In this document: positions 3,322 to 11,525 of the stretch, piece after piece
How positions within the stretch are numbered: position 1 is the first letter of the stretch
How the letters are laid out: each line of letters opens with the position of its first letter
Source of the DNA: a virus
Direction: 5' to 3' (one strand)
DNA length: 27,561 nucleotides
IMG/VR virus record: IMGVR_UViG_3300035700_000359
Span: 3,357-30,917 of that record
Position numbers and translations under genes: made by a program
Notes under the pieces: model-generated
What the model was told of the DNA's origin: nothing
The model's input: only the letters and a program-made list of their open reading frames with translations
The model's database searches: none

Positions 3322-4334
3322 TGTTAAATCTAAATAAAAAATTAGTAACTAAAGATGAACTATTAAAGCATGTAAGCCCATTAGATATATTTAATTTTTA
3401 TTCAGGACAAGAACTAAAATTAAAAAAAGTAACTTTATCTCCTTTAAGAGAAGAAAAAAATCCATCTTTTGCATTATTTGCATCAGGTAATGAGATATTC
3501 TTTAAAGACTTTGTATTAGGAGGTGGAGATTGTATAAAATTTGTTAAATTAATGTTTGGATTAAATTTCATGGATGCATTAAGTAAAATAGTAGTTGATT
3601 TTGATCTTAGAGATCATTTTCTATATAAAGAAGTTTATAGAACTGTAAATAATAACTTTAAAAAAGTAGATCAAAAAAAAGTTATTAAAGAACAAAATGA
3701 AACTATGCTTAACATAAAAAAAAGAAGATGGAAAAAGCATGATATTATGTTTTGGAGTAGTTTTGGTATTACATTTAATACCTTAAAACATTATAGAGTT
3801 TTACCTGTTGAATATATATTTTTAAATAATAATATAATAAAAGCAGATAAATATGCTTATGCTTTCATAGAAGAGAAAGATGGTATAAAAACTTATAAAA
3901 TATATCAACCATTCAATAACAAAATAAAATGGCTTACAACACACGATAATTCAGTATGGCAAGGTTGGGAACAACTTCCAGAATCAGGTTATAACTTAAT
4001 AATCACTAAATCTTTAAAAGATATTATGGCTATTACTTCTATAATGGGTATTAACTCAACTGGTTTACAAAATGAAGGAGTTAAACCAAAAGAAAGTATA
4101 GTTAAAGAATTAAAAAATAGATTTGAAAACATATATTTACTATATGACAATGATTTTGATTCAGAAACTAACTGGGGTAGACAATTTGGAGAAAAAATAA
4201 GTAAACTTTTAGATGTTCCTCAAATAGAAATTCCTAGTAAATATAAATGTAAAGACTTTTCTGATTTAATACAAAAAAAAGGAATAGAAAAAAGTAAAAT
4301 AATTTTAAATAATATAATAAAATATGATAACTAA
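3321..4334 (+). CDS. DNA primase-like protein with Toprim domain
   Basis: 337 residues that follow the DnaG-type layout. The N-terminal part (about 36-75) reads LSPLREEKNPSFALF, then FKDFVLGGGDCIKFV, the contour of the CHC2 zinc-binding domain but with the zinc cysteines and histidine missing. The Toprim fold begins near 225 (LIITKSLKDIMAI) and includes a strand ending LLYDNDFDS near 272-280 that supplies the Asp-X-Asp metal ligands, then CKDFSDLIQKKG near the end. The first Toprim acidic position is replaced within TKSLKD, as I recall for primases of Bacteroidota phages. No helicase domain is fused. It would prime DNA replication in the host cytoplasm. Confidence 0.8.
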   Translation: MLNLNKKLVTKDELLKHVSPLDIFNFYSGQELKLKKVTLSPLREEKNPSFALFASGNEIFFKDFVLGGGDCIKFVKLMFGLNFMDALSKIVVDFDLRDHFLYKEVYRTVNNNFKKVDQKKVIKEQNETMLNIKKRRWKKHDIMFWSSFGITFNTLKHYRVLPVEYIFLNNNIIKADKYAYAFIEEKDGIKTYKIYQPFNNKIKWLTTHDNSVWQGWEQLPESGYNLIITKSLKDIMAITSIMGINSTGLQNEGVKPKESIVKELKNRFENIYLLYDNDFDSETNWGRQFGEKISKLLDVPQIEIPSKYKCKDFSDLIQKKGIEKSKIILNNIIKYDN

Positions 4335-4335
4335 A

Positions 4336-4749
4336 ATGGAAGAAAATAGAACATTAATAGCTGTATATGGCAGTTTAAGAAAAGGATTAAGTAATCATCC
4401 TATAATAGTATCAGCTTTGTATGTAGGAGACTTTACTTCAGATCCTGTTTTTAAAATGTACGATTTAGGTGCATATCCAGCAATTACACATGGAGGAAAT
4501 TCTAGTATAGAGTTTGAAGTCTATGCAGTTAATGCTAAGGAATTAGGAGAAGTCAATTCTTTAGAAGGTTTTCATGAAGGAAGAGAAAATAATTATTATG
4601 ACAGAGCTATAATTAAATCCCCTTACGGGAAAGCTTATTATTTCTTTTTTTCTGAATCAGGAAAATTAAGTCATAATTTAGATAACGCAGGGTTAGAAGT
4701 AGAAAGTGGAAATTGGAAAGATCACCATACAACTAAAATAGCAAATTAA
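4336..4749 (+). CDS. Gamma-glutamylcyclotransferase-like protein
   Basis: GGCT/AIG2-like fold enzyme, which releases gamma-glutamyl groups as 5-oxoproline by intramolecular attack. From ATG 4336 the protein has 137 residues: the substrate-loop motif VYGSLRKG (10-17) and a LEGF segment whose Glu77 is the likely catalytic acid, followed by YYDRAI. The size fits single-domain members. An in-frame ATG at 4324 would overlap the primase by 11 bases; 4336 gives a one-base gap and matches the family's short N-terminus. It opens the amide-ligase cassette, and GGCT-like genes beside ATP-grasp and amidoligase genes are a recognised association, so its target is probably a gamma-glutamyl bond made or left by that pathway. 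Confidence 0.82.
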   Translation: MEENRTLIAVYGSLRKGLSNHPIIVSALYVGDFTSDPVFKMYDLGAYPAITHGGNSSIEFEVYAVNAKELGEVNSLEGFHEGRENNYYDRAIIKSPYGKAYYFFFSESGKLSHNLDNAGLEVESGNWKDHHTTKIAN

Positions 4750-4750
4750 T

Positions 4751-5620
4751 ATGAGACCAAAATATAAATTATTCAGACCAAGAGTTAGGACTAGACACCC
4801 CTCACACTCTGCATTAAGACCAGTTCATCAAAACTTACCTTTATTACCTTTTAGATCAATTATTAGATTAGGTTCTACTACAAGTATAAGAGCTTTAGCA
4901 AGTAATAGAAACGTTAGAGTAGAAGTAAATTCAGTTGATTCTATTAAAAACAGTTCTAATAAACTGTTGATGAAACAATGCTTTACACAAAAAGAAGTAA
5001 ACACTGCAGCTTGGTGGACTTATAATGAGATAGAAGAACTTTTTATTCCTGAATTTTCAAATGAAGAATTAGAAATGGCTTCTTTAGAAGATTTATCTTA
5101 TCCTATTATATCTAAAAATATATATGGTAGTAGAGGTACTGGTAATAAAAAGCATGATACTCCAGAATCTTTAAGAGATTGGATGGAAAATAAATTTTTA
5201 GATAATTATATATTTGAAAAGTATCATAACTATGTTAGAGAATATAGACTTCATGTAGATTCAGAAGGATGCTTTTACTCATGTAGAAAAATGCTTAAAT
5301 CAGATACTCCTCAAGAATCTAGATGGTATAGAAATAACGATCATTGTGTTTGGATAATGGAAACAAATGACTTATTTGATAGACCATCAAATTGGGATGA
5401 AATAGTATCACATTCTGTTAATGCTTTAAAAGCAGTAGGACTTGATGTAGGAGCTGTAGATTTAAGAGTACAATCATCTACAAATTCAGATGGAGAAAGT
5501 AGAGCAAACCCAAAGTTTATAGTAATAGAAATTAACTCTGCTCCTAGTTTTGGAAAAGTTACAGAAGAGAAATATATAGAACAATTACCAAAAATTTTAA
5601 ATAGAAAATACAATGATTAA
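4751..5620 (+). CDS. ATP-grasp ligase (phage type)
   Basis: 289-residue ATP-grasp enzyme, which activates a carboxylate as acyl-phosphate and joins it to an amine. Seen: an adenine-contact strand YPIISKN with Lys122, a Gly-rich loop GSRGTG at 126-131, the hinge IFEKY with Glu157, EYRLHV at 164-169, and the metal-binding end AVDLRV (Asp237) and VIEINSAPSFG (Glu260, Asn262). The first 50 residues are Arg-rich and contain RLGSTT, an N-terminal region seen in phage members. The start is one base after the GGCT stop (TAATATG). It overlaps the next gene by eight bases. The substrate is unknown; by context it should add an amino acid or peptide to a product handled by the neighbouring ligases and amidotransferases. 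Confidence 0.85.
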   Translation: MRPKYKLFRPRVRTRHPSHSALRPVHQNLPLLPFRSIIRLGSTTSIRALASNRNVRVEVNSVDSIKNSSNKLLMKQCFTQKEVNTAAWWTYNEIEELFIPEFSNEELEMASLEDLSYPIISKNIYGSRGTGNKKHDTPESLRDWMENKFLDNYIFEKYHNYVREYRLHVDSEGCFYSCRKMLKSDTPQESRWYRNNDHCVWIMETNDLFDRPSNWDEIVSHSVNALKAVGLDVGAVDLRVQSSTNSDGESRANPKFIVIEINSAPSFGKVTEEKYIEQLPKILNRKYND

Positions 5621-6347
5621 AGGAAAAAGAGTATTAGTAGGATTATTAGGACATAAACATTCAGGTCAATACAATGATGGATATGGGCAAAATGAAGCTT
5701 ATATAGAATTTTTTAGAAAATATGGGGATGTAATTATTATTGATTCTCAATGTGAAACAGTAATACCAGTAGATTTATTAGTATTACCAGGAGGAAGAGA
5801 TGTAAATCCTATAAGATACGGAGAAAAGCCAGGTATGCAAACTCAACCTCCCGATTTAGAATATGAATGGTTTTTTGCAAATATGTTTAAGCACTATTTA
5901 AGTAGAGCGAAAAATTTTGACACAGCAATATATGGAATATGTGCAGGATTTCAAAATTTAGTTGTAGAATTTGGAGGAAGTTTACAGCAAAGTTATACTC
6001 AAAAACAATCCACTAAATTTAGAGGAGAATTAGTTGATAGGTTAAAACTAAATGATAAATATCTTTTAGAAGACCCTATGATGAGTAAAAACTATAAATC
6101 TTATAAGTTTAAAAATAATTACAATGAAACTAATTCTATACATCATCAAGCTGCTTTAGAATCTGATGTTACTACAGATTTTATTATTGTAGCTACAAAT
6201 AAATTATATGATAATGTAGAATTTATTATTCATAAGGAATTACCTATTGCTGCAGAGCAGTCTCATCCTGAAGAAAGAGTACAGCCTTTATTAACACACA
6301 GTTTATTAGACAATTTAATTTTTAAAATAACTAAAAATAATGAGTAA
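5613..6347 (+). CDS. Class I glutamine amidotransferase-like hydrolase (peptidase C26 type)
   Basis: 244 residues of the class I amidotransferase fold, closest to gamma-glutamyl hydrolase/PuuD-like members. Seen: LPGGRDVNPIRYGE at 58-71, the nucleophile elbow GICAGFQ with Cys110, an HHQ motif at 177-179 and EQSHPEE with the triad His218 and Glu220. All three catalytic residues are therefore present. Such enzymes cleave a gamma-glutamyl amide or release ammonia from glutamine for a partner ligase. It overlaps the ATP-grasp gene and, by eight bases, the following unknown gene, so the three are likely co-translated. Whether it hydrolyses a peptide or supplies ammonia cannot be told from sequence. 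Confidence 0.85.
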   Translation: MIKGKRVLVGLLGHKHSGQYNDGYGQNEAYIEFFRKYGDVIIIDSQCETVIPVDLLVLPGGRDVNPIRYGEKPGMQTQPPDLEYEWFFANMFKHYLSRAKNFDTAIYGICAGFQNLVVEFGGSLQQSYTQKQSTKFRGELVDRLKLNDKYLLEDPMMSKNYKSYKFKNNYNETNSIHHQAALESDVTTDFIIVATNKLYDNVEFIIHKELPIAAEQSHPEERVQPLLTHSLLDNLIFKITKNNE

Positions 6348-7008
6348 TATATTAATAATTTCAAAAAATGAAGAAGAACAAAAAAAATTTAAATTTTTAG
6401 AAGACAGCTCTCATGACATAAAAAATTTATTAGGTATTAATACTAGAATTGATACATCAACTGATTTTTTAAAAATTTTAGATACTAACAAAGAAAATTT
6501 TCAAAAAGCTGAAGTTATTATAATTTCTGATATAAAAGTATATACTAATTTTTTAAGACGTTCTAATGTATTATCAAATGTTTATTTTCCTAATTTAAAA
6601 GAAATAATATTTTCTCCTTTAAATGAGTCAATGTTTAATCTTTTATTAGATCATTTACCTTATGATTTTTATAGTTCAAAATATAATATTAAATTAGATG
6701 AATATCTTTTATTTTCTAAAATAAAAAAAGATAGTAAAGGTAAATATAAAATTTTAAGTAATATTAATGTAAAGCTTAAAGGAAATGTTACTTTTTTTCT
6801 TAGCAATACTATACAAGATAATGAAATTTATTTAAATAGAGTATTTTCTAAAAATAAATTTTTATCTTTTTACAAAAAATTTGAATATCTTTTACCTTCT
6901 GGAAAAACTATAAATAAAACAGTAATAACGCCAATAAATAATTTTGAAAAAAGTAGTTCAAATTTATTAAAAACATCAATAATTAACTTTTTAAATAATA
7001 TAAAATGA
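6340..7008 (+). CDS. Unknown protein inside the amide-ligase cassette
   Basis: 222 residues with no family I recognise. The N-terminus (MSNILIISKN) and AEVIIISD near 58-65 look like beta strands of an alpha/beta fold. The rest is Lys/Asn/Phe-rich, with no conserved Cys/His cluster and no transmembrane segment. The gene is even more AT-rich than its neighbours, with long Lys, Asn and Leu codon runs. It overlaps the amidotransferase upstream by eight bases and the amidoligase downstream by four (ATGA), and it ends in TGA, the only non-TAA stop in the window. Its position suggests a scaffold, carrier or substrate for the cassette, but that is context only. Confidence 0.75.
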   Translation: MSNILIISKNEEEQKKFKFLEDSSHDIKNLLGINTRIDTSTDFLKILDTNKENFQKAEVIIISDIKVYTNFLRRSNVLSNVYFPNLKEIIFSPLNESMFNLLLDHLPYDFYSSKYNIKLDEYLLFSKIKKDSKGKYKILSNINVKLKGNVTFFLSNTIQDNEIYLNRVFSKNKFLSFYKKFEYLLPSGKTINKTVITPINNFEKSSSNLLKTSIINFLNNIK

Positions 7009-7796
7009 TAGACAAAGTAAAAGTAGGAGCTGACCCAGAATTATTTTTAACTAAAAATGGAAAACCTTTTTCAGCTGAAGGTATTATAGGAGGAAGTAAA
7101 GATGAACCTAAATTAACTGAAATTGAGGGATGCTGTTTACAAGAAGATAACGTAATGGCTGAATTCAACATAACTCCTTCTGAAAATGAAGAAGATTTTA
7201 ATGAGAATATAGATTTTATGCTTGATACTATATCTACTATTGCATTAGTTAATGATTGTGAAATCATGATAAAACCTTCTGCAATTTTTGAAAAAGATCA
7301 ATTAATAACTAGTCAAGCTATGGAATTTGGGTGTAGTCCTGATTTTAATGCTTACAATTTCATGGAAAATGAAAGAGTAGAAATTAAAGAAAACCTTAGA
7401 GCTGCAGGAGGGCATATCCATATTGGTTATGAAAATCCAACTAAAAATATCAGCTTACAAATAGTAAGGGCTTTAGATATATTTTTAGGGCTTCCTTCTT
7501 TATTTTTAGATGATGATACAAGAAGAAGACAGTATTATGGAAATGCAGGAGCTTACAGAGAAAAAACTTATGGAGTAGAATATAGAACTTTATCTAACTT
7601 TTGGATTCAAACAGAAGAGTTAAGACTATGGGCATTCAGACAAGTTATGTTAGCTATTGATTTTGTATCTAGTGGGGAAATTCTAAAAGTAACTGATAAG
7701 CAGTGGGGAGACATAGAATTAGCTATTAATGACAATGATAAAAGCTTAGCAAGTGCTATAGAACAACAATTAATAAAAACAAAAAAAGAAAATTAA
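7005..7796 (+). CDS. phiEco32-type COOH-NH2 ligase (amidoligase)
   Basis: 263-residue ligase of the glutamine-synthetase-like fold described from phage phiEco32 (COOH-NH2 ligase type 2). Seen: GADPELFL at 8-15, VMAEFN at 50-55 with an acidic metal ligand, AAGGHIHIG at 133-141, and RRRQYYGNAGAYREK followed by YGVEYRTLSNFW between 173 and 200, all diagnostic for the family. These enzymes are predicted to form amide bonds between amino acids, peptides or protein side chains using ATP. It overlaps the unknown gene by ATGA and is separated by one base from the class II amidotransferase (TAATATG). It differs clearly from the second amidoligase at 9786. Confidence 0.88.
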   Translation: MIDKVKVGADPELFLTKNGKPFSAEGIIGGSKDEPKLTEIEGCCLQEDNVMAEFNITPSENEEDFNENIDFMLDTISTIALVNDCEIMIKPSAIFEKDQLITSQAMEFGCSPDFNAYNFMENERVEIKENLRAAGGHIHIGYENPTKNISLQIVRALDIFLGLPSLFLDDDTRRRQYYGNAGAYREKTYGVEYRTLSNFWIQTEELRLWAFRQVMLAIDFVSSGEILKVTDKQWGDIELAINDNDKSLASAIEQQLIKTKKEN

Positions 7797-7797
7797 T

Positions 7798-9780
7798 ATG
7801 AATTATTTACTAAGCCAAGATACGTTAAATATGTTAGTACTAATAATTAGTATGTTTTTACTAACAATTATGGTTAATGCTATAATTAGATTAGTTAAAA
7901 GAGCACAAGGGAAGAAAGTAAATCAACCTACTACTTTAAATTGTGGTATTTTTGCTTGGGCAGGAAAAAATACTAAAAAATTCAATAAGTCAAAGTTTGA
8001 TATTTTAGGTATTTACAATGACGCAAGAGGAGGACAAGGTTCTGGTATCACTAAAAATGGAGATATTTTTAAAAGCTCAAAACCTTCTAAATATAAAGAC
8101 TTTTTAACAGATATAAACTATGATAATGATTTAGAATCTCCTGTTATATTTGGGCATACTAGAAAAAGTTCTAGTGGATCTGTAAACGCTAAAAATAATC
8201 ATCCTTTTGGATTTGGATTTACTCAAGAAAAAGGATTTGAATTTACAGGAGTTCATAATGGAACTCTTTACAATGAAAATGATTTAGCAAGAAAATTTGA
8301 AGCAGATAGAAGTAAAATAGACAGTCACATTTTATTAGAATGTATTTACAAAAGTAAAAGTTTTAAAGTTTTAAAAGATTATGTAGGGGCAGCTGCATTA
8401 GTATTTTATAATTTAAATGATCCAAATGTTTTATATGTATTTAGAGGGGAATCTTCTAAATATGAAAGTGATAAAACTACAGAGCCAGAAAGGCCTTTAT
8501 TTTATTACCAAGAAACTAGAAATAGTCTTTATATATCTTCTATAGAAAATTCTTTAATAGCAATTACAGAAAAACAAGAAGATATTTTAAATATAGAAGA
8601 ATTTGAAACTAACATTGTTTATAAAATTACAGATGGTAATGTTAAAAAAGCTATTAAATTTAAAATAAATAGAAAAAATTCTTTTCAGAGAGAATATTAT
8701 TCTAATTATAGTAATAATAGTAATATGGATTGGACAGGACAAAATCACCAAGCATTTAGAAATAAAGCTGAAAGTAAGTACCCTTCGAGCTCAAATAGTC
8801 GTATTTCAGATAAAAAAACTAGAAGAGGAAATTCTGGATCTAATACTGAAAAAGTTTTCAAAATAAAAAATGAAAGTCATACTAATGCTGACAGAAAAGG
8901 AGGAAATCCTATATGGGAGAAGTTTAATTATACTAGGAATGGTCATCCAGTTACAGGTATTTTTATTAACACTCTTGAAGAAGGATTACTTCGTCTTGAT
9001 GAAGACTATGTAGATGCTGTTCAAATATTTAATGAAAAATATCTAGGTAAAGTATTTGATTTACAAAGTCAAACATACTTAGATACATTAGATCAAATAG
9101 ATCATAATCATTACTATATACCTTTTATGAAATCTACTATTAATAAAGATTCTATGCCTTTTGTTTATATTGTAGATGGAATTAGAGTTTGTCACAGGCA
9201 AGATTATGAAGCTATTTCTTTAAATGATGATTTACTTTCAGGTCTAGAATATGCTAGCTATTATCCTATGTTGAATACAAAAGGATTAGTAACACATAAA
9301 GGATCTATAGTAAATCATATAAGATTTAGTCCAATAGGTAGTAAATATGTTTATACTGTTTTAGATGGAGAAGTAACTTCAAGAAAAAGGAAAAATAATG
9401 AAGATATATTAGCTTATTATTTTCCTTCAGTTACTATTAAACAAGCTGGAGAAAAAACTAAAAAGAAAGAAGTAAAAACTTTAACTTTAGGAGAAAATAC
9501 TGTTTTTGAAGAATGTTTTAAAGAACTTGAAAAAAATGATGTAGAAGTGAATAATACATGTGAAATTTTTAATCTTCCTGAAAAAAAAACAACAGAAGAA
9601 GACATAGAAAGAACACAGAATATTCAAAAAATAAAATATTTTTCTAATGTATATTTAATGAAAAAAAGAGAGTCTTTAGAAAAATTAAATCCTAATGCAG
9701 AAGCTAAAGGAATTATAAATTTGATCGACAAATTTGTAACTGATATTGCAAAAGTCAACGTTAAAAAATTAAAATATTAA
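7798..9780 (+). CDS. Membrane-anchored class II glutamine amidotransferase domain protein
   Basis: 660 residues. Residues 10-33 form a hydrophobic transmembrane helix followed by a basic stretch (RLVKRAQGKK), predicting a cytoplasmic C-terminal body. The class II (Ntn) amidotransferase domain starts at CGIFAWAG with Cys49, and has RGGQGSG at 77-83, GHTR at 119-122 and HNGT at 153-156, matching the nucleophile, glutamine-binding and oxyanion motifs. Family members need an N-terminal Cys; here it lies 48 residues in, with Asn before it and no internal ATG, so cleavage is implied if it is active. Residues 285-355 are Asn/Ser-rich linker; 360-660 is an unrecognised domain with a charged C-terminal helix. 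It probably supplies ammonia, or removes an amide, for the adjacent ligases. Confidence 0.8.
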   Translation: MNYLLSQDTLNMLVLIISMFLLTIMVNAIIRLVKRAQGKKVNQPTTLNCGIFAWAGKNTKKFNKSKFDILGIYNDARGGQGSGITKNGDIFKSSKPSKYKDFLTDINYDNDLESPVIFGHTRKSSSGSVNAKNNHPFGFGFTQEKGFEFTGVHNGTLYNENDLARKFEADRSKIDSHILLECIYKSKSFKVLKDYVGAAALVFYNLNDPNVLYVFRGESSKYESDKTTEPERPLFYYQETRNSLYISSIENSLIAITEKQEDILNIEEFETNIVYKITDGNVKKAIKFKINRKNSFQREYYSNYSNNSNMDWTGQNHQAFRNKAESKYPSSSNSRISDKKTRRGNSGSNTEKVFKIKNESHTNADRKGGNPIWEKFNYTRNGHPVTGIFINTLEEGLLRLDEDYVDAVQIFNEKYLGKVFDLQSQTYLDTLDQIDHNHYYIPFMKSTINKDSMPFVYIVDGIRVCHRQDYEAISLNDDLLSGLEYASYYPMLNTKGLVTHKGSIVNHIRFSPIGSKYVYTVLDGEVTSRKRKNNEDILAYYFPSVTIKQAGEKTKKKEVKTLTLGENTVFEECFKELEKNDVEVNNTCEIFNLPEKKTTEEDIERTQNIQKIKYFSNVYLMKKRESLEKLNPNAEAKGIINLIDKFVTDIAKVNVKKLKY

Positions 9781-9785
9781 TAATT

Positions 9786-11525
9786 ATGACAAGAAAAGTA
9801 ATGACCATTAATGGCTGTATAGAAAAAATTACAGACTGTAAAAAAATAGAAGGGGACTATTATAAAATAGGAGATAGAAAAATAGAAAATTCTGGGGATT
9901 GTTATATTATTAATGGCAGACATTTTAAAAGTAATACAGGATATATTATTTTTGATAATTATAAAAAACAATATGAAATAGCTAATTCCTTATATACAAA
10001 AGGAGTAATTAGAATAGATGAAAATAATAATTTTGTTATAGGTATGTTTTTAGAAAATAACTTACAATGCCTTGTTAAAGAAAAAGGAAGTTCAACAATA
10101 TTGAAAGCAATGAACTACACTATATTTGATAATAGTAATTTTGTTGTTAATAAAAAAACAGAAGTATTTACTCATAAAAATGATTTAAGGCTAGAAGATT
10201 ATTTAAATTATGAAAAAGTTAATTCAGATTTAAAAAGGTCTTTAAATTATAATATTACTAATGAAGCCATACAATCTTCTAAAAAAAGTATGGAAGAATA
10301 TAGTAAATACTTACCTAAATATAATTTTGCTAAAGGAGTTAGTAAATATTTAAATGATTTAACTTTTGGTTTAGAATTTGAAACTACTGAAGGTACGATT
10401 CCTATAAGATATTGTGCTGCAAGTGGAGTAGTTCCATTAAGAGATGGAAGTATTAGAGGATTAGAATATGTAACTTTACCTTTACAAGGAGAAGATGGAG
10501 TTAATAAAATAATGAATATTAGTAAATTATTAAATACTTATACTAATTATGATCATAGCTGTTCTTTACATTTACATTTAGGTAATATACCTAGAACAGA
10601 AAGTTTTATTGTAGCATTATTTAGAACATTAGCTATGGTAGAAAATGATTTCTTTGATATGTTTCCACTTTACAAAAAAATAAATGCAGGATTTAAAAAT
10701 AAAAATTATACTGCCCCTTTACCTTGTAAAAATTTATTGAATAAAATGGATTCTAAAATAGATTCTTCTAATGTAAGTAAGAATTTTTCTTATTTATTTG
10801 AATATTTGTCTAATGGAGAATCTTATTCTAATTATGGAAATAGTTTAGACAAAGTACACTCTCATCCGTATGATCCTGATAACAACAGAAAATGGAATGT
10901 AAGATCACGTTATCATTGGGTAAATCTTATACCATTAATATTTGGTAATAAGCAAACAGTTGAGTTTAGAATCCATACTCCTGTAAAAGATCCTGATAAA
11001 GTTATGTTATTTTTATTAATGTGTTCTAAATTAGTAAATTTTGTAAAATCTAATGAAAAAGATATTTTAAGTAATAAATTTAACAATTTAGATCTTAAAT
11101 TTATATTAAATCACAAAAATACTAATTTACATTTTGAAGGAAAATTAAATTTTTTTATTTTAAATTATTTTTCTACTAGAAAGCAATTTACTACTCAACA
11201 GTATCAAAAAAGTAATTTTAATTATTCAGAACAAGAATTTGAGTTTAAATCTACTAAATCTTTTAGAAGTGACACAGTGTATTTTTTAAATGAAGATAAT
11301 TTAAATGATAAAAATACTGGTACAACTCAAAAAGCACTTGAAAATTTTATGACTAATTTAGAAAATGAAGTACCAGCTTATAGAAATGAAGGGACAGTAA
11401 GGGGAAGACGTTCAAGTAGACAACCTTTTACAGAAATAGATACTGAAGCTACTTCTACAGAACCTACAGCTTCTTCTAGTTGGTATGATATGGCAAGACA
11501 AAGAATTAATAATAGCGAATCTTAA
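9786..11525 (+). CDS. Second amidoligase (Amidoligase_2-like) with N-terminal extension
   Basis: 579 residues. The catalytic core spans about 190-420: FGLEFET at 194-200, LRDGSIRGLEYVT at 218-230, SLHLHLG at 260-266 and RYHWVNLIPL then TVEFRIH at 375-397. These Glu, His and Arg motifs match the amidoligase branch of the glutamine-synthetase-like superfamily (Amidoligase_2). The first 190 residues form an extra region with Cys11, Cys18 and Cys39 and repeated short strands (YYKIGDRKI; CYIINGRHF), which I cannot assign. The last 90 residues are polar and likely disordered (RGRRSSRQPFTEIDTEATS). It closes the cassette, five bases after the amidotransferase. Presumed reaction: ATP-dependent amide bond formation; substrate unknown. 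Confidence 0.85.
   Translation: MTRKVMTINGCIEKITDCKKIEGDYYKIGDRKIENSGDCYIINGRHFKSNTGYIIFDNYKKQYEIANSLYTKGVIRIDENNNFVIGMFLENNLQCLVKEKGSSTILKAMNYTIFDNSNFVVNKKTEVFTHKNDLRLEDYLNYEKVNSDLKRSLNYNITNEAIQSSKKSMEEYSKYLPKYNFAKGVSKYLNDLTFGLEFETTEGTIPIRYCAASGVVPLRDGSIRGLEYVTLPLQGEDGVNKIMNISKLLNTYTNYDHSCSLHLHLGNIPRTESFIVALFRTLAMVENDFFDMFPLYKKINAGFKNKNYTAPLPCKNLLNKMDSKIDSSNVSKNFSYLFEYLSNGESYSNYGNSLDKVHSHPYDPDNNRKWNVRSRYHWVNLIPLIFGNKQTVEFRIHTPVKDPDKVMLFLLMCSKLVNFVKSNEKDILSNKFNNLDLKFILNHKNTNLHFEGKLNFFILNYFSTRKQFTTQQYQKSNFNYSEQEFEFKSTKSFRSDTVYFLNEDNLNDKNTGTTQKALENFMTNLENEVPAYRNEGTVRGRRSSRQPFTEIDTEATSTEPTASSSWYDMARQRINNSES

Follow-up and report, generated by a model that had tools for sequence, protein, structure and literature searches.

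Class II glutamine amidotransferases use the free alpha-amino group of their nucleophilic Cys in the Ntn mechanism. A virus-encoded member of this class therefore poses the question of how its Cys comes to lie behind 48 residues and a predicted membrane helix, and whether that extension is a propeptide, an anchor, a sorting signal, or an artifact of gene prediction. The gene is located in a stretch of 27,561 nucleotides (the window) taken from a 30.9-kb virus record.

The enzyme, its catalytic Cys, and its operon

The gene and its neighbors in the operon are listed below, with positions counted from the first letter of the window.

4324 to 4749, plus strand: gamma-glutamyl cyclotransferase-like gene (GGACT) belonging to this operon (PF06094, E 9.3e-13)
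4751 to 5620, plus strand: ATP-grasp ligase, S6 glutaminyl transferase-like (phrog_2599, E 4.4e-33; 51% identity to phi14:2 over 99%)
5613 to 6347, plus strand: class I glutamine amidotransferase, Peptidase_C26 (PF07722, E 6.3e-19)
7005 to 7796, plus strand: phiEco32-like COOH-NH2 ligase type 2 (PF14395, E 2.4e-15; phrog_3815, E 5.4e-76)
7798 to 9780, plus strand: class II glutamine amidotransferase ORF, 660 amino acids, ATG start
7798 to 7941, plus strand: leader of 48 codons, with a transmembrane helix (about residues 12–30), a basic juxtamembrane segment (RLVKRAQGKK), and NQPTTLN before the Cys
7942 to 7944, plus strand: codon TGT of the catalytic Cys49, predicted residue 1 of the mature enzyme
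7942 to 8685, plus strand: class II amidotransferase (Ntn) domain, residues 49–296 (PF13522, Pfam GATase_6, E 4.8e-10)
8860 to 9405, plus strand: second, separately folding domain, residues 355–536 (AlphaFold2 pLDDT 90.9, pTM 0.86)
9786 to 11,525, plus strand: Amidoligase_2-type amidoligase, directly downstream (PF12224, E 2.2e-5; phrog_2443, E 2.9e-33)

A prior sequence-only reading had described an internal Ntn nucleophile, Cys49, behind a 48-residue extension that contains a transmembrane helix and a basic flank, and this description holds; the helix spans about residues 12–30. Mean Kyte–Doolittle hydropathy over residues 12–30 is 2.71 versus 0.94 or less beyond residue 60, and AlphaFold2 predicts a leader helix at residues 7–36 followed by a disordered stretch at residues 39–46 (pLDDT <50). 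The coordinates 7798–8283 given in that reading fall inside the ORF, although they span its first 162 codons only. As had also been stated, no start codon abuts Cys49, because the codon at position −1 of the junction (...TTLN/CGIFAWAG) is AAT. The glutamine-site motifs that had been called intact are all present, with RGGQGSG at residues 77–83, GHTR at 119–122, and HNGT at 153–156.

Judged by fold, profile, and residues, the protein is a class II (PurF-type, Ntn) glutamine amidotransferase. Foldseek matches its N-terminal domain to GFAT/GlmS/PurF with E values down to 1e-12, and structural alignment of residues 49–296 with VIA-align 2 yields Z scores of 20–24. Cys49 superposes on residue 1 of Escherichia coli PurF (1ecb; Z 23.8, rmsd 2.7 Å, 218 aligned), of GlmS (2j6h; Z 23.7), and of GOGAT (1ofe; Z 18.0), and also on residue 87 of Arabidopsis GPRAT2 (6lbp; Z 19.6) and residue 22 of glutamate synthase (7mfm; Z 17.7), which are the processed N-termini of the latter two proteins. 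GlmS/GFAT and EgtC have an amidotransferase fold like that of the window protein (Z 21–24), and they start with Met-Cys and lack a propeptide. In the structure comparisons, none of their acceptor domains resembled the second domain of the window protein. This second domain follows a linker that AlphaFold2 predicts with low confidence, has no match to a solved structure (best PDB E value 2.8, Foldseek), and, judging from the model, is possibly an undescribed acceptor or scaffold domain.

The propeptide-bearing class II amidotransferases (PurF/GPRAT of B. subtilis, plants, and humans; glutamate synthase; MEROPS C44) have both the Ntn fold and an extension before the Cys in common with the window protein, and residue 1 of mature C44 enzymes in solved structures corresponds to Cys49. 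In PurF, the residues EE precede the Cys. According to PMC9140057, GPRATs shed an N-terminal propeptide autocatalytically, which in Arabidopsis GPRAT2 exposes Cys87.

The stop codon of the COOH-NH2 ligase lies 1 nt upstream of the leader start codon, and the gene set as a whole is, from its profile matches, a phiEco32-like amidoligase island. Such islands, reportedly described by Iyer et al. 2009 as combining a COOH-NH2 ligase, an ATP-grasp protein, an amidotransferase, and a GGCT-like YtfP, have the same gene set and order of kinds as the window. In phiEco32, the amidotransferase gene adjoins those for a conserved hypothetical protein, an ATP-grasp protein, and YtfP. Unlike the window protein, the amidotransferases of phiEco32, cr108_1, and Lbo-JY46 begin with (M/I)-Cys and have no leader. 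The window phage itself is, by its best protein matches, crAss-like (Crassvirales), with Cellulophaga phage phi14:2 (Crassvirales, Steigviridae) being the first match for its amidotransferase, its ATP-grasp protein, and a minus-strand protein of 1952 residues. The phi14:2 amidotransferase (g040/gp051; YP_008242264.1) is the closest annotated record (31% over residues 16–528) and resides in the same operon. It has its own leader before CGLFGW, MTIIEIILVALFIHTVGFFLTKKRRINNVIS, which at 31 residues is shorter than that of the window protein. In the phi14:2 records, this leader is included in the annotated gene without comment, and the product is named only "aminotransferase".

Several other genes of these loci deserve mention. 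The operon of the window also encodes a 222-residue protein (6340–7008) that matches no Pfam or PHROG family and for which an iterated search matched the window's own record only. Similar-sized ORFs take its place among relatives, one of which (L009:3485–4162) has a class I amidotransferase-like GGEDVYPG, and the protein is perhaps a fast-changing degenerate class I amidotransferase. A spore photoproduct lyase-like radical SAM gene (36–923; PF20903, E 1.3e-24) is present in this crAss-like phage, and a match covering 60% of it was found in only 1 of 50,697 phage records. The COOH-NH2 ligase gene is apparently split in L027:3079–4905, by an inserted ORF, and in L037:3579–4389. A second, shorter amidotransferase-like frame starting with MCLI or MCII occurs about 3 kb downstream in L064–L071, L076, L079, L084, and L115.

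Relatives with and without a leader

A homologue search of IMG/VR with the window protein as the single query recovered no relatives, and the phi14:2 protein used in the same manner matched only phi14:2 itself. Because single-sequence queries found nothing further, family profiles were required. Profile searches of IMG/VR and of phage and genome records yielded 235 amidotransferase frames (for one search, the best 80 of 146 were kept), in which the Cys was at the expected place in 231 and not in 4. Among 136 distinct relatives, a start codon abuts the Cys in 105 (ATG in 93, ATT in 6, TTG and GTG in 3 each), a hydrophobic leader is present in 30, and the remaining one is a mis-picked archaeal row; no intermediate N-terminal form was found among them. 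We scored ATT as a start because the annotation of the phiEco32 amidotransferase (L004:4998) begins the protein at an ATT that immediately precedes its Cys. An earlier set that included duplicates divided into 86 frames starting at the Cys, 54 with a leader, and 0 others (140 frames). The proportion 30 of 136 should not be read as a frequency in the population, because the profiles derive from relatives of the window protein among which leader types were well represented. A profile scan of genome contigs found 14 weak cellular or archaeal loci, none of which has a leader (L128, L130, and L137 having been excluded or wrongly picked at some stage).

The alignment of homologues that the sequence-only reading had proposed was thus carried out, and it reveals that the extension is conserved as a leader, with helix and motif kept, in 30 of 136 distinct relatives. 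Given that 29 of these besides the window protein have a leader of the same plan, its recurrence is, on sequence grounds, more than chance. Homologues starting directly at the Cys, which that reading had counted against its proposal, do exist (105/136). However, they are not a refutation, because both forms occur among near-identical proteins and a Met-Cys start marks where the mature protein begins. Because leaderless relatives start with Met-Cys and Cys49 superposes on residue 1, the mature window enzyme very probably begins at Cys49.

Could translation instead start at or next to the Cys, with the leader frame being a by-product of upstream sequence? We judge this to be highly improbable. 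Such a start is true of 105/136 relatives, but position −1 of the leader forms is occupied by AAT, TCT, TAT, GGC, CAA, TTT, ACA, and other codons that do not serve as starts, and protein-level conservation, an excess of synonymous changes, and stops in the other frames all speak against it. In 54 leader-bearing frames (duplicate loci included), the leader frame is open in all, whereas a stop interrupts the +1 frame in 54/54 and the +2 frame in 48/54; the chance of an open leader from base composition alone has a median of 0.053 each. Differences per site are 0.275 at synonymous and 0.127 at non-synonymous positions across 18 close pairs, which are not independent of one another. From these patterns, the leader reading frame is under protein-level constraint.

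The leader was also sought as a free-standing gene elsewhere in the phages. A leader profile run against 25 phage records, several of which are perhaps fragments, found the start of the amidotransferase in all but one (L025) of the 12 leader-type records. The 13 leaderless records gave 1 weak match (E 9.5e-4), which we consider noise because it lies antisense inside a 321-aa gene. Against the 8890 ORFs of the collected loci, nothing except amidotransferase starts scored below E 0.05, and the L121 ORF (E 0.017) turned out to represent one more type of leader.

Leader anatomy and the fate of the helix

The leader is 26–33 residues long in 28 of 30 proteins. The 48-residue extension first noted is therefore real for the window, but the long form is restricted to the window protein and its sister L007 (43 residues). 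The consensus is M-x-x-x-I-I-L-I-L-x-L-x-(H/Q/N)-Y-I-x-x-x-x-F-K-P-K-x-N-x-L-(N/S/Y)/C. Counting back from the Cys, position −2 is Leu in 26/30 and position −4 is Asn in 20/30, whereas the stretch between the helix and this N-x-L motif is variable; the motif followed by its variable last residue (N-x-L-x) accordingly reads as a cut-site signature, because its positions are conserved relative to the Cys while those linking it to the helix are not. The Asn directly before the Cys, to which attention had been drawn, is present in the window but is not required, given that position −1 is N in 10/30, S in 9, Y in 4, and otherwise F, T, V, G, Q, or L. This looseness fits self-processing and does not fix the chemistry.

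At least one K or R occurs between the helix and the Cys, within the last 12 leader residues, in 30/30 proteins, which suggests that the C-terminal side of the leader is cytoplasmic. The topology call is weaker for the 10/30 leaders that also have K or R at residues 2–5. The leader might alternatively be a lipoprotein or secretion signal, with the Cys lipidated or the protein exported. In some rows, L-S-C or I-S-C does come after a hydrophobic stretch, and a loose lipobox fits 1 of 30 (L001, phi14:2). However, the PROSITE-type lipobox fits 0/30, A-x-A before the Cys is found in 0/30, and the basic residues noted above intervene in every case. In addition, a lipidated Cys could not serve as the Ntn nucleophile, and the partner enzymes need ATP and are expected to be cytoplasmic. 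We therefore regard a lipoprotein or ordinary signal peptide as unsupported and its chances as very slight.

A more unusual feature is a polar residue in the middle of the helix, found in 30/30 leaders (H in 12, Q in 10, N in 5, S in 2, R in 1) and across all 17 lineages, as grouped by hand. The other hydrophobic columns have H, Q, N, R, K, E, D, or S in only 24 of 420 letters. The aligner could pull polar residues together in gapped rows, but not in the 20 of 30 leaders wherein the residue is located at −16 from the Cys. Its presence suggests self-pairing of the helix or contact with a partner, since an indifferent anchor would not need it. The polar residue is also a point in favor of a separate protease, host or phage, membrane-bound or intramembrane, that cuts at the Cys and recognizes either this residue or N-x-L: it is unnecessary for self-cutting and typical of recognition by a membrane partner. 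Nevertheless, we consider such a protease unlikely, because propeptide-bearing class II amidotransferases, including precursors related to the window enzyme, are described as self-cutting in PMC7056826, PMC5753285, and PMC9140057.

The sequence-only reading had left a choice between a self-cleaved propeptide and an uncut enzyme working at the membrane. In the latter case, the leader would be a permanent anchor, and the protein either would be active without a free alpha-amino group or would have no role beyond that of a scaffold or of a partner fed with ammonia. In most leaders, a short link of about 8–11 residues separates the helix from the Cys, which would keep an uncut enzyme at the membrane surface, and the leader is conserved as such. 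Yet the alpha-amino group of the nucleophile takes part in Ntn catalysis, and the glutamine site is intact in all 30 leader-type proteins. These have the Cys at the nucleophile position and retain Arg77, His120, Arg122, His153, Asn154, Gly155, and Asp175, of which R122, N154, G155, and D175 presumably have the same glutamine-site roles as in PurF. Moreover, this Cys is precisely where leaderless relatives from the same operons start, and an N-x-L abutting the Cys is expected of a cut site rather than a tether. We thus find a permanent anchor quite unlikely. By analogy with PurF, the leader is most likely a membrane propeptide that is removed autocatalytically, and the Met-Cys relatives together with the match of Cys49 to residue 1 of PurF lead us to favor self-cleavage over the uncut form.

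Distribution of the leader and the proposed precursor

The leader is distributed as a patchwork. On a tree of 71 proteins (30 leader, 41 leaderless; LG+G4, 1000 bootstraps), the leader label changes 17 times, with at least 12 changes forced by well-supported branches, and bootstrap trees give 16–17 changes. A wider quick tree of 98 rows gives 15, of which 8 are on well-supported branches. Even near-identical proteins differ, with a leader in L032–L035 and L037 and none in L031 and L040, where the DNA simply lacks the leader and ATG abuts TGT. No enzyme-domain site clearly co-varies with the leader in 13 leader/leaderless pairs (the best, Glu at residue 89, being 6 versus 1), and for this reason the domain offers no mark of a self-cutting form.

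When each clade in turn was left out, the leaders of other clades recognized those of L038 (E 2.8e-7), L050 (7.4e-8), L020 (7.8e-11), L041 (1.5e-8), L021 (5.5e-6), and others. Left unmatched were the pair formed by the window protein and L007, as well as L058, L065, and L025; L121 (300), L042 (12), and L030 (380) were not recognized, and L024 was weak (0.44). Because the window leader is unmatched in this manner, its common descent with the others is indicated by plan and motif only. We read this pattern as an old leader that has often been lost and perhaps regained by recombination. Related zinc-ribbon/HNH-like ORFs (CxKCK...KDGLYxxCKxCKKEYD) are located between the COOH-NH2 ligase and amidotransferase genes in 4/30 leader-type and 0/41 leaderless loci (one-sided Fisher 0.028, uncorrected for relatedness), and may carry the leader along by homing.

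L015, 4392 to 4907: zinc-ribbon/HNH-like ORF
L041, 4384 to 4917: zinc-ribbon/HNH-like ORF
L121, 4430 to 5011: zinc-ribbon/HNH-like ORF
L160, 3376 to 3942: zinc-ribbon/HNH-like ORF

No dependence of leader presence on operon content was seen among the 71 relatives, and both forms are found in the same operon. Relatives scoring at least 100 bits have the COOH-NH2 ligase in 69/71 and Amidoligase_2 in 68/71. The claim that the leader places the pathway at the inner membrane consequently does not hold in general, given that this operon also functions in relatives that lack a leader. The leader looks like an optional membrane step.

We consider it likely that the gene product is a membrane-inserted precursor whose signal-anchor propeptide is cut before Cys49, most likely by the protein itself, such that the enzyme is switched on and released. 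The leader would be a single-pass signal-anchor with its N-terminus outside and the amidotransferase in the cytoplasm. With the conserved N-x-L-x motif as its guide, the folded domain would break the bond before Cys49 in the way that precursors of PurF and glutamate synthase do, through an N-to-S acyl shift and then hydrolysis. This cut would free the alpha-amino group and thiol of Cys49, turning on glutamine hydrolysis for the neighboring amidoligases, and would release the enzyme from the membrane, leaving behind a helix of about 27–48 residues. The predicted mature N-terminal peptides are CGIFAWAGK for the window protein and CGLFGWIGATPEEFNK for phi14:2. The topology, the cutting and its autocatalytic nature, the release, and the use of a membrane stage are what we infer from these comparisons.

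Standing against self-cutting is that the known propeptides named for comparison are not membrane helices. To our knowledge, the propeptides of class II amidotransferases have hitherto been soluble tails. The literature searched, with most subscription papers outside its scope, holds no description of a transmembrane propeptide on an amidotransferase. In PMC7056826, the precedent is a short propeptide, whereas the window-type extension comprises a transmembrane helix, a mid-helix polar residue, and N-x-L. A different reading, which we deem rather unlikely, is that the enzyme serves to deliver a membrane microprotein, from which it cleaves itself. The helix of about 27 residues, with its invariant mid-membrane polar residue, would then have its own job, either self-association or contact with a membrane protein of the host, and would be made 1:1 with the enzyme. 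The leader would spread and disappear in cassette fashion among crAss-like phages, perhaps transported by the HNH homing endonucleases located just upstream in some of these phages.

Under the favored reading of a membrane propeptide, the propeptide idea is known, and what the literature searched does not describe is a propeptide that is transmembrane, is switched among close relatives, and has a polar residue in mid-membrane without exception. Pairs of nearly identical enzymes from the same operon, one with a membrane propeptide and one lacking it, amount to a natural comparison repeated many times, and such pairs make the contribution of the propeptide testable, whether this is timing, place, or the leftover peptide. 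A cultured system exists in phi14:2 on Cellulophaga baltica. The leader would also offer a first way into the mechanism of an amidoligase island found commonly among phages.
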